This document shows positions 34,032 through 36,155 of a stretch of DNA of 64,000 nt, piece by piece. The stretch's first letter is position 1, and each line of letters opens with the position of its first letter. The notes beneath the pieces are model-generated. The model did no database searches. It saw only the letters and a program-made list of their open reading frames with translations, and was not told the DNA's origin. Source of the DNA: Candidatus Planktophila vernalis (lineage in GTDB: Bacteria; Actinomycetota; Actinomycetes; Nanopelagicales; Nanopelagicaceae); assembly GCF_002288185.1 (NCBI RefSeq), contig NZ_CP016776.1, positions 744,001 through 808,000 on the forward strand. The letters run 5' to 3'. The translations under genes were made by a program, and so were the position numbers.

Positions 34032-34613
34032 CTAGCTCTCGGGTACGGCCTGCGGACTGATGACGGCCTCGGCGACCTGTTTCATCGTTAATCGACGGTC
34101 CATGGCCGCCCTTTGAATCCAAGAGAAGGCTTCCGGCTCTGAAAGATTAAGCGCCTTCATCAAAATACCTTTTGCCCTATCAATAATCTTTCGTGTCTCT
34201 AGTCGATCATGTAGATCTGCAACTTCTGCAGCAAGTGAGCGCATTTGTGTGTGACGACTAATTGCGATTTCAATTGCAGGAATCAAATCCCCAATCGTAA
34301 ATGGCTTAACAACATATGCCATTACTCCAGCATCGCGCGCTCTATCTACTAATTCTTTTTGTGAAAAAGCTGTCAGCATCAACACAGGTGCAAGATCAAT
34401 AATTTTTTCAGCTGCAGAAATTCCATCTAGCACCGGCATCTTCACATCAAGAATTGCTAAATCTGGTTTGTGTTCATTTGCTAGATCAATTGCTTCTTGG
34501 CCATTTGTTGCCTCTGCCACAACTTCATAGCCAGCACCTTGTAACATCTCAACAAGGTCCATGCGAATAAGCGCTTCATCTTCGGCTACGAGGATGCGAA
34601 CCTTTTGTGTCAT
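34032..34613 (-). CDS. pdtaR: Two-component response regulator with ANTAR RNA-binding domain (PdtaR)
   Basis: 193 residues. Receiver domain at 1-125: acidic pocket VAEDEALIRMD, phospho-acceptor Asp in LAILDVKMPVLDG (about 57), Thr in LMLTAFSQ and Lys in YVVKPFT. An ANTAR domain follows (about 132-190: LETRKIIDRAKGILMKALNLSEPEAF, shown in part), which binds paired RNA hairpins and acts in antitermination or translation control. The layout matches mycobacterial PdtaR (Rv1626), partner of kinase PdtaS; no kinase gene is in this window. The ATG begins one base past the discriminator of the tRNA-like gene, so its only SD-like GGGG lies inside that gene's acceptor stem. Otherwise typical. Confidence 0.93.
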   Translation of the reverse strand: MTQKVRILVAEDEALIRMDLVEMLQGAGYEVVAEATNGQEAIDLANEHKPDLAILDVKMPVLDGISAAEKIIDLAPVLMLTAFSQKELVDRARDAGVMAYVVKPFTIGDLIPAIEIAISRHTQMRSLAAEVADLHDRLETRKIIDRAKGILMKALNLSEPEAFSWIQRAAMDRRLTMKQVAEAVISPQAVPES

Positions 34614-34614
34614 G

Positions 34615-34687
34615 TGCCCCGAGTCGGATTTGAACCGACACTGTGCAGTGTTTGAGACTGCCCTCTCTACCGTTGGAGTACCGAGGC
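34615..34687 (-). tRNA. tRNA-Leu(CAA)-like gene with class I (short variable loop) body
   Basis: 73 nt, 5' GCCTCGG to 3' TCGGGGC plus A73; CCA is not encoded. Acceptor 7 bp (two G-U); T arm GTCGG-TTCAAAT-CCGAC perfect; anticodon arm GCAGT-CTCAAAC-ACTGC perfect with anticodon CAA; U8, A14, G18G19, A15-U48 present. Two oddities: the variable region is 5 nt (ACAGT), whereas bacterial leucine tRNAs have a long extra arm, and the D stem is short and offset (CTC/GAG). Lies between pyk (28 nt upstream) and pdtaR (ATG one base after A73). It may be a working tRNA, a decayed one, or a tRNA mimic with a regulatory role. Confidence 0.7.
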
Positions 34688-34715: not shown

Positions 34716-36155
34716 TTAGCGGTAAGCCGCAGCTACCCCACCAACAGCATCTCCCACGCGGTGAACGCGCATCGCGTTCGTTGAACCTGGAATTCCAGGA
34801 GGTGAACCAGCAACAATCATCACTTGATCACCTAATTGAGCGCGAGCTGAATCAATAAGGACGGTGTCTACCAATTTCACCATTTCATCGGTTGCACCAA
34901 CGATAGGAGTGAGCATTGATTCAACTCCCCATGAAAGTGCAAGGCGGTTATATGTGCCAACCTCTGGCGTCATGGCAAGAATTGGAATAGGTGAGCGCAA
35001 ACGAGACATACGACGTGCTGAATCACCACTTTGTGTAAAGGCCACTAAATACTTTGCATCAACAATAGCGCCAACTTCAGTTGCTGCCTTTGTTATTGCC
35101 CCACCCTTAGTACGTGGGGCTGTTTTTATTGGACGAATACGGTCGAGGCCGCCTTCTTCAGTCTTTTGAATGATGCGTGCCATTGTTTGGACAGCTTCAA
35201 TTGCAAACTCTCCAACACTTGTTTCACCTGAGAGCATTAGGGCATCTGCGCCATCTAGCACTGCATTTGCACAATCTGTTGCCTCTGCGCGAGTTGGGCG
35301 TGAGTTGGTAATCATGGAATCAAGCATTTGAGTTGCAACGATAACTGGCTTAGCCATATCTCGGGCTAACTCAACGCACTGCTTTTGCACCAATGGCACA
35401 TCTTCAATTGGAAGTTCCACACCAAGATCACCACGCGCAACCATGATGCCATCAAAGGCATCAACGATTTCAACAAGGTTTTCAACGGCTTGTGGCTTTT
35501 CAATCTTTGCAATTACGGGAACACGAATTCCCTCTTCATCCATAATCTTATGAACATCTTTAATATCTTCTGCGCTTCTAACAAATGAGAGTGCGATGAA
35601 ATCAGCTCCTGCTCGCAAGCCCCAGCGAAGGTCATCAATGTCCTTTTCAGATAACGCAGGGACGGAGACTGCAACACCTGGCAAGTTAATGCCCTTGTTG
35701 TTACTCACTGCGCCAGGTTCAATAACCTTAGTAACAACATCATTACCCTTAACTTCAACAACTTCGACAGTTACTTTTCCATCATCAATGAGAATGCGAT
35801 CTCCGGTTTTGCAATCTCCTGGTAAACCTTTGTAAGTAGTGCCAACGCGCTCTTTAGTTCCCTCAACATCATCAACTGTGATTGTGAAGATGTCACCACG
35901 TGCTAAATCATGTGGTCCTGCCTTAAAGCGAGCCAGACGAATCTTTGGACCTTGCAGATCAACAAGAATGGCAACTGGGCGACCAGCAGCTTTTGCGGCG
36001 TTGCGAACAGAATCTAAGCGTGCTTGGTGCTCTTCATATGAGCCGTGAGAGAGATTCAACCGTGCCATATTCATACCAGCGTCAATGAGCTCCTTAACTT
36101 TTTCAGGAGATTCAACTGCTGGACCCATCGTGCACACGATCTTTGCTCTACGCAT
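34716..36155 (-). CDS. pyk: Pyruvate kinase
   Basis: 479 residues. Converts phosphoenolpyruvate and ADP to pyruvate and ATP. N-terminal RRAKIVCTMGPAVESPEKV and MARLNLSHGSYEEH; barrel motifs LVDLQGPKIRLARF, DFIALSFVRSAEDI, VPVIAKIEKPQAVENL (catalytic Lys) and IMVARGDLGVELP; C-terminal domain from about 340 without an extra phosphotransferase-like extension. ATG start 9 nt from the gltD stop. Same strand as gltBD and the tRNA-like gene downstream. Confidence 0.98.
   Translation of the reverse strand: MRRAKIVCTMGPAVESPEKVKELIDAGMNMARLNLSHGSYEEHQARLDSVRNAAKAAGRPVAILVDLQGPKIRLARFKAGPHDLARGDIFTITVDDVEGTKERVGTTYKGLPGDCKTGDRILIDDGKVTVEVVEVKGNDVVTKVIEPGAVSNNKGINLPGVAVSVPALSEKDIDDLRWGLRAGADFIALSFVRSAEDIKDVHKIMDEEGIRVPVIAKIEKPQAVENLVEIVDAFDGIMVARGDLGVELPIEDVPLVQKQCVELARDMAKPVIVATQMLDSMITNSRPTRAEATDCANAVLDGADALMLSGETSVGEFAIEAVQTMARIIQKTEEGGLDRIRPIKTAPRTKGGAITKAATEVGAIVDAKYLVAFTQSGDSARRMSRLRSPIPILAMTPEVGTYNRLALSWGVESMLTPIVGATDEMVKLVDTVLIDSARAQLGDQVMIVAGSPPGIPGSTNAMRVHRVGDAVGGVAAAYR

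Follow-up and report, generated by a model that had tools for sequence, protein, structure and literature searches.

Bacterial leucine tRNAs usually belong to class II, and their long variable arm separates them from most other tRNAs; bldA of Streptomyces is an example of such a class II tRNA-Leu. The window analyzed here, the whole stretch of 64,000 nucleotides from Candidatus Planktophila vernalis, holds a tRNA gene with the leucine anticodon CAA and no long arm. This raises the question of whether the gene encodes a working leucine tRNA, a tRNA charged with something else or, as the first-pass annotation also considered, a decaying copy.

A CAA anticodon on a tRNA body with a short variable region

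ARAGORN called a tRNA-Leu(CAA) at 34614-34687 on the minus strand, the sole tRNA that it reports in the window, and the Rfam tRNA model RF00005 matched 34615-34687 with 50.2 bits (E = 8.5e-8). Both bear out the initial description of a CAA anticodon on a body with ACAGT in place of a long arm. Since the folding energy beats that of shuffled sequences only moderately (z = -2.0; 7 of 200 shuffles folded equally well), the evidence beyond chance lies in the model score and in conservation. The parts of the tRNA are as follows.

34615..34687, minus strand: tRNA-Leu(CAA), positions 1-73, full 3' CCA not encoded; ARAGORN, RF00005, family conservation and compensatory changes
34652..34654, minus strand: anticodon CAA, positions 34-36, reads UUG
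34640..34644, minus strand: short variable region ACAGU, 5 nt, positions 44-48, where a long arm would be
34663..34678, minus strand: leucine-type D arm, positions 10-25, with a 3-bp stem, open 13/22 and a D loop with GGUAG
34615..34615, minus strand: discriminator A73

The acceptor stem has 7 bp and the anticodon and T stems 5 bp each. The latter two are fully paired, as expected from the perfect arms initially ascribed to this 73-nt cloverleaf. The 7/5/5-bp stems are kept by compensatory changes, as in an elongator tRNA, and the acceptor and T stems add up as 7+5 pairs, unlike those of tRNA-Sec or of allo-tRNAs with an altered acceptor. A hidden long arm was considered and rejected, as only 5 nt sit between two fully paired stems. 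For the same reason the tRNA lacks the defining feature of a class II tRNA-Leu, whereas its variable region falls within the 4-5 nt of class I. It is nevertheless not a standard class I tRNA, because the class I D stem has 4 bp with 13-22 paired, and C13 and A22 are unpaired here and in all 97 aligned relatives. The D stem consists of C10-G25, U11-A24 and C12-G23, and all three pairs are retained in the 97 aligned actinobacterial copies. The same copies, which were selected for the CAA anticodon, are invariant at T33, C34, A35 and A36, and ACAGU, seen in 26 of these 97 distinct sequences, is the commonest of their short variable regions. The D stem had been read earlier as short and offset. 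It does have three pairs only, but it is not defective; it is the leucine-type D arm common to the leucine tRNAs of this genome.

Conservation of the short form

The gene was matched at 89-100% identity in 96 of 101 family genomes, two of these matches covering 67 of 74 bases; listed completeness is 78-92% for the five genomes without a match. When family genomes with a completeness of 95% or more were considered, the short CAA form was recovered by pattern in 61 of 61 and the short UAA form in 56, as counted and judged by eye. Among the matches listed for these genomes there is no tRNA-like long form, three matches having been set aside by eye as not tRNA-like (one each in G007, G424 and G429). 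In some family genomes (G045, G085, G417, G418 and G043) the short tRNA-Leu(UAA) gene is present in two or three copies.

Beyond the family, named contigs were scanned with a pattern that required AGAG, the CAA anticodon, a short distance and a C directly after A73; every match has these features by construction. At least 119 contigs matched, and ARAGORN folded all of them as tRNA-Leu(CAA). Among the matches listed, 110 are Actinomycetota by title, including Streptomyces, Mycobacterium, Bifidobacterium, Nocardioides, Micromonospora and others. Nine further contigs among the matches listed (L123, L132, L137, L153, L156, L158, L175, L192 and L224) are titled Chloroflexi, cyanobacteria, Acidobacteria, Planctomycetes or Myxococcota. 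One contig titled Bifidobacterium breve (L194) has a tRNA of the window's type, with pyk 81% and pdtaR 93% identical to those of the window, the pdtaR match being short and at the edge of the locus; these matches suggest that its label is probably wrong.

For the alignment, 191 short CAA genes gave 106 distinct sequences, of which 97 are actinobacterial; the nine non-actinobacterial ones were left out, and a second tRNA in L175 was skipped. Only typed loci were taken from the list of relatives' loci, which holds other tRNAs as well. Of the 97 copies, 67 came from the pattern that requires A73 and 30 were not chosen by pattern. Over the cloverleaf and the 15-48 contact, 99.0% of the cells in the 97 copies are paired, and this value falls to 35.5-50.2% when the partners are slid. 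Sixteen of the 21 pairs have changed on both sides, with 352 such cells compared to a shuffled mean of 91.8. The compensatory changes that had been called for as a check in related actinobacteria are thus present. Further pair types numbered 41, not above the 39.5 of the shuffles (138 of 500). Pair 31-39 is open in 17 of the 97 copies, and positions 15 and 48 are A and U in 85 copies but G and C in 12. In the 30 copies not chosen by pattern, A73, C12-G23 and C13/A22 are retained without exception.

That the gene is a decaying pseudogene, as the missing arm expected of its isotype and a U4-G69 wobble (U-A in some relatives) might hint, can be dismissed as having next to no probability, given its presence in nearly all family genomes, arms that are neither broken nor lost in close relatives, the near-complete pairing with many compensatory changes and a genome in which no replacement tRNA was found.

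Leucine identity within the genome

The genome of the window is a single contig of 1,364,004 bases and is 99.95% complete. RF00005 finds 39 tRNAs in it, which were typed by ARAGORN. Its leucine tRNAs with anticodons UAG and GAG are long-armed, with variable regions of 13 and 15 nt, and those with CAA and UAA have variable regions of 5 nt. When the tRNAs were compared by a script in standard numbering, the combination of a 3-bp D stem, open 13/22, A15-U48, A73 and the G19-to-27 spacing was seen in 4 of the 39, all of them leucine tRNAs; the script assigned wrong numbers to tRNA-Lys(UUU) and gave a poor fit for L028. The tRNA-Cys of the genome has open 13/22 only, without the rest of the leucine set. 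As this layout is unique to the four leucine tRNAs, the body of tRNA-Leu(CAA) is a leucine body and the part that is missing is the long arm. The tRNA thus combines a leucine anticodon and A73 with the core layout of the leucine tRNAs in the same genome.

No class II tRNA-Leu(CAA) was found elsewhere in the genome, and no other tRNA with a CAA anticodon, among the 39 typed tRNAs or by pattern search; the check proposed earlier, for a normal class II counterpart, therefore came out negative. A first pattern, with 132 matches compared to 153 in its control, was too loose to judge. A tighter pattern for UUR leucine tRNAs of either form gave exactly two matches in the genome, which are the short CAA and the short UAA genes. 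One LeuRS gene scores above the family cut-off. The genome also has two extra tRNAs with valine anticodons and odd bodies: L028 (G000:C1:891800-891872) pairs poorly in the numbering used and has T73, and L026 (G000:C1:931106-931180) has a 7-nt variable region.

The meaning of UUG was examined with 48 mechanical ORFs of the window, in which 354 UUG and 371 UUA codons occur among 19,370 codons. Alignments were limited to at most 75% identity and to one per gene and locus. Of 1,913 pairs aligned at UUG, 59.0% have leucine in the homologue, 54.1% by way of CUN codons. The corresponding leucine values are 59.8-71.5% across the four CUN codons, 70.8% for UUA and 1.0-18.1% for seven non-leucine codons. 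Homologue matches were obtained for 18 of the 48 ORFs, and the codon pairs come mostly from a few genes, with pdtaR and pyk leading. UUG behaves as leucine in this test, which reports what UUG means and not which tRNA decodes it; reassignment of the codon is not supported. Because tRNA-Leu(UAA) may also read UUG by wobble, we do not claim that tRNA-Leu(CAA) is the sole reader of UUG.

These results bear on the possibility that the tRNA receives some other amino acid than leucine, which would then be inserted at some UUG codons. It is true that a class I-like body carries the leucine anticodon here and that the Rfam score is low within its own genome, where 3 of the 39 tRNAs score lower. Nonetheless, within the genome only the leucine tRNAs share its combination of D arm, A15-U48 and A73, and UUG positions behave as leucine. 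In addition, A15-U48, A22 and A73 are common to class II tRNA-Leu(CAA) of other genomes, and 6 of 13 loci of that class II tRNA likewise lie within 0.9 kb of pdtaR. Together with the failure to find another CAA tRNA in the genome, these observations weigh against the other charging identity raised by the first-pass annotation, and we consider it very improbable.

Two forms of UUR-reading leucine tRNAs

We sampled 99 Actinomycetota genomes, 85 of which gave 141 pattern matches; the 14 without a match are not evidence of absence. One of the 141 rows, a second G384 row, was dropped because this 50-nt AGAG string does not look like a tRNA by eye; were it a genuine tRNA, it would break the AGAG/AGAC rule described below. 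The 140 remaining genes comprise 58 long and 10 short CAA genes and 49 long and 23 short UAA genes. The same anticodon was not seen twice in one genome of this sample. Both genes are long in 33 genomes and both short in 2; 13 combine long CAA with short UAA and 7 short CAA with long UAA. Only one of CAA and UAA was seen in the other 30. UUR-reading leucine tRNAs in the sampled Actinomycetota are thus either of a long or of a short form.

The end of the D loop is AGAC in 107 of 107 long genes and AGAG in 33 of 33 short genes, the UUR leucine patterns used for the phylum sample, the genome of the window and the family admitting only C or G after AGA, such that forms with A or T would be missed. 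Further differences were seen in 44 full-length genes (20 short, 24 long), hand-chosen from the phylum sample and other genomes. Among the 20 short forms, 18 have A9 and all have C12-G23 and C13. All 24 long forms have G9 and G12-C23, with G or A at position 13. A14, A15, A22, U48 and A73 are identical in all 44 genes. Arm and core thus switch together, and the presumed leucine signals are unchanged.

The short form may have spread by copying, for example by gene conversion from a short tRNA-Leu(UAA), rather than by loss of the arm in place. In line with copying, short CAA and short UAA genes carry the same core changes. Outside the core, the closest counterpart of 6 of ten short CAA genes is a short UAA gene from a different genome, with a long UAA gene tying for first place in one case. 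The other 4 of the ten are best matched by a long CAA gene, the window's own tRNA among them, and when the core is set aside, short CAA genes are on average no more identical to short UAA genes (0.644) than to long CAA genes (0.680). Identity outside the core therefore fails to separate the two routes; we regard copying as rather less likely than not.

The pdtaR locus

The gene lies between pyk and pdtaR, as described initially, and both neighbors are likewise on the minus strand.

34032..34613, minus strand: pdtaR-type gene, receiver plus ANTAR, 193 aa (Pfam PF00072 and PF03861)
34716..36155, minus strand: pyk, pyruvate kinase (Pfam PF00224 and PF02887), ending 28 nt before the tRNA
34611..34613, minus strand: pdtaR start codon ATG, with one C (34614) between the ATG and A73

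No other in-frame ATG, GTG or TTG precedes the receiver motif of pdtaR in the window. In each family genome, the earliest start codon in frame with the receiver motif (AEDE) was taken as the start of pdtaR. It lies exactly 1 nt past A73 in 88 of 105 family genomes (80 ATG, 8 GTG), which are related and not independent trials. The count leaves out G049 and G057 (partial matches), G417-G420, G429 and G430. Of the remaining genomes, nine lack a co-oriented motif within 330 nt, and in eight the gap is 10-66 nt; where pdtaR is co-oriented, the spacing is thus exactly 1 nt in 88 of 96. The stretch from the start codon to the AEDE motif comes in 22 different lengths, from 5 to 34 residues. The family therefore shows the abutting start codon that is characteristic of a tRNA-punctuated transcript. 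Scanning the minus strand around the tRNA for promoters turned up a single site, which lies inside pyk; shuffled sequences contained more.

Across the phylum, the 5' end of pdtaR faces the tRNA within 460 nt in 101 of the 110 actinobacterial contigs among the matches listed, on the opposite strand in 78 and on the same strand in 23. In the other nine actinobacterial contigs among the matches listed, one pdtaR turns its 3' end to the tRNA at a distance of 1,066 nt, five contigs lack a pdtaR match but have the tRNA near a contig edge, and three have no match at all. None of the nine non-actinobacterial contigs among the matches listed has pdtaR facing the tRNA, five of them being near a contig edge. 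As for the 13 long-arm tRNA-Leu(CAA) loci of other genomes, besides the six with pdtaR within 0.9 kb, two have it within 1.7 kb and five have no pdtaR match within about 2 kb. In part of the phylum, this site is thus occupied by the long form.

Close abutment was also seen after another tRNA. In the genome of the window, tRNA-Ala(GGC) (L012/L225, G000:C1:433461-433540) ends 3 nt before the start of leuS, and it does likewise in G051; in other relatives the offset of leuS was estimated as 13, 31-33, 77, -11 (one) or about 0.9-1 kb, or there was no match. Downstream of tRNA-Ala(GGC), we located the first open frame with 90 codons or more in 30 family loci (L327-L356); in 14 of them it begins 1, 3 or 4 nt beyond position 73. 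The abutting gene is often not leuS and often looks like a short-chain dehydrogenase by sequence appearance. Close abutment is therefore not special to pdtaR. The spacing after tRNA-Ala(GGC) varies more, and that to pdtaR is nearly always exactly 1 nt when co-oriented.

It is conceivable that the tRNA has an added regulatory role, in which its transcription and 3' processing would control pdtaR such that pdtaR output would follow tRNA maturation. The proximity to pdtaR in most of the actinobacterial contigs listed is consistent with such a role, as is a start codon that stays 1 nt past A73 despite the variable length of the N-terminal stretch. On the other hand, the tRNA points away from pdtaR in 78 of the 110 contigs among the matches listed, and tRNA-Ala(GGC) abuts leuS or another gene in much the same manner. 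We consider this role doubtful on balance. The plain alternative is compact packing of a small genome, and because abutment is not special to pdtaR, packing could explain the spacing seen here. The abutment at both pdtaR and the genes after tRNA-Ala(GGC) suggests that tRNA 3' processing may make near-leaderless mRNAs in the family of Planktophila.

Discussion

We propose that this gene encodes a functional tRNA-Leu(CAA) on a remodelled body that decodes UUG as leucine, is charged by LeuRS and in the family usually lies against pdtaR. We hold this reading with high confidence on the structural and comparative evidence, and the short-arm tRNA is most likely a normal decoder with an unusual body that is widespread in actinobacteria. 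Its charging and 3' processing, its co-transcription with pdtaR and leaderless translation of the latter are what we infer from the sequences. The tRNA is predicted to work like a tRNA-Leu but lacks the class II arm, and its unpaired 13-22 sets it apart from standard class I tRNAs as well.

In the mechanism that we favor, the long arm would have been replaced by a 5-nt loop through coordinated remodelling of the core, with A for G at position 9, C-G for G-C at 12-23 and C for G or A at position 13, while the leucine-type D arm, A15-U48 and A73 would have been kept. Bacterial LeuRS would probably read the D arm, A15-U48 and A73 rather than the long arm. This agrees with work on bacterial and mitochondrial LeuRS and on leucine identity elements. 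In a simple mechanism for the spacing, one transcript would carry the tRNA and pdtaR, and a cut by RNase Z after A73 would leave a pdtaR mRNA that starts with C-AUG. Leaderless translation is common in actinobacteria.

A broader reading can be put forward tentatively, at a probability somewhat short of even. Family tRNAs, with tRNA-Leu(CAA) before pdtaR and tRNA-Ala(GGC) before leuS or another gene, might serve as 5' boundaries of messages, so that their excision would yield near-leaderless mRNAs and an ANTAR regulator would be tied to tRNA maturation, the UUR tRNAs themselves existing in two states. Within this broader reading, LeuRS would have to accept both bodies, given that arm and core switch together in a two-state family.

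The tRNA resembles the class II tRNA-Leu(CAA) and tRNA-Leu(UAA) of bacteria in its anticodon, A73, A15-U48, A14 and A22, and the long leucine tRNAs of its own genome in its 3-bp D stem, open 13/22 and D-loop spacing. It differs from the long forms in having 5 nt where those of its own genome have 13 or 15, and A9, C12-G23 and C13 where the 24 long genes compared have G9, G12-C23 and G or A at position 13. Mitochondria have a tRNA-Leu with a short variable loop that is charged by a LeuRS of bacterial type, and thus provide another leucine tRNA without a long arm. In contrast to it, the tRNA described here is encoded on a bacterial chromosome, has a full cloverleaf and a normal T loop and occurs beside other leucine tRNAs that are long-armed. 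The position of its 3' end is reminiscent of tRNA punctuation in mitochondrial transcripts, as the tRNA abuts a start codon and its excision would give a nearly leaderless mRNA; here, however, the genes are bacterial and processing is predicted from spacing.

Indications of short-armed leucine tRNAs can be found in the literature. In the text available to us, tRNALeu-2, -3 and -5 of M. tuberculosis are named as tRNAs with a long variable loop (PMC11541572), and this naming suggests that the other leucine tRNAs of that species lack one. A mycobacterial tRNALeu(TAG) carried in a cluster is given a short loop in the accessible part of another report (PMC6582537), and a tree marks some Leu, Ser and Tyr tRNAs as short-armed in the portion at hand of a third (PMC2474678). 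The parts available of these three sources (PMC11541572, PMC6582537 and PMC2474678) describe no two-form UUR family, core change or pdtaR locus. A human tRNA-Leu-CAA without a long arm is described as close to tRNA-Met (PMC8450103, as far as accessible). It shares the CAA anticodon and the missing arm with the tRNA of the window; the human gene, however, is near tRNA-Met and recently mutated, whereas the tRNA of the window is built on a leucine body and occurs throughout the actinobacteria. The accessible portions of four further papers (PMC12772374, PMC8629427, PMC4524478 and PMC9569102) contain nothing on short-arm bacterial leucine tRNAs. The literature searched, mostly without subscription journals, held no paper that treats the short UUR leucine tRNAs as a family. 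In databases, such genes are presumably annotated as tRNA-Leu.

These findings imply that many actinobacteria use arm-less leucine tRNAs beside long-arm ones in the same cell. The mixed bodies would permit a direct test of how LeuRS recognizes its tRNAs and of which core changes allow the loss of the arm. Isotype rules in tRNA calling that expect a long arm could mislabel genes of this kind. Finally, the closeness of the tRNA end to a start codon offers a testable case of tRNAs as mRNA starts in bacteria, and if this is true, tRNA excision would be a bacterial counterpart of mitochondrial tRNA punctuation.
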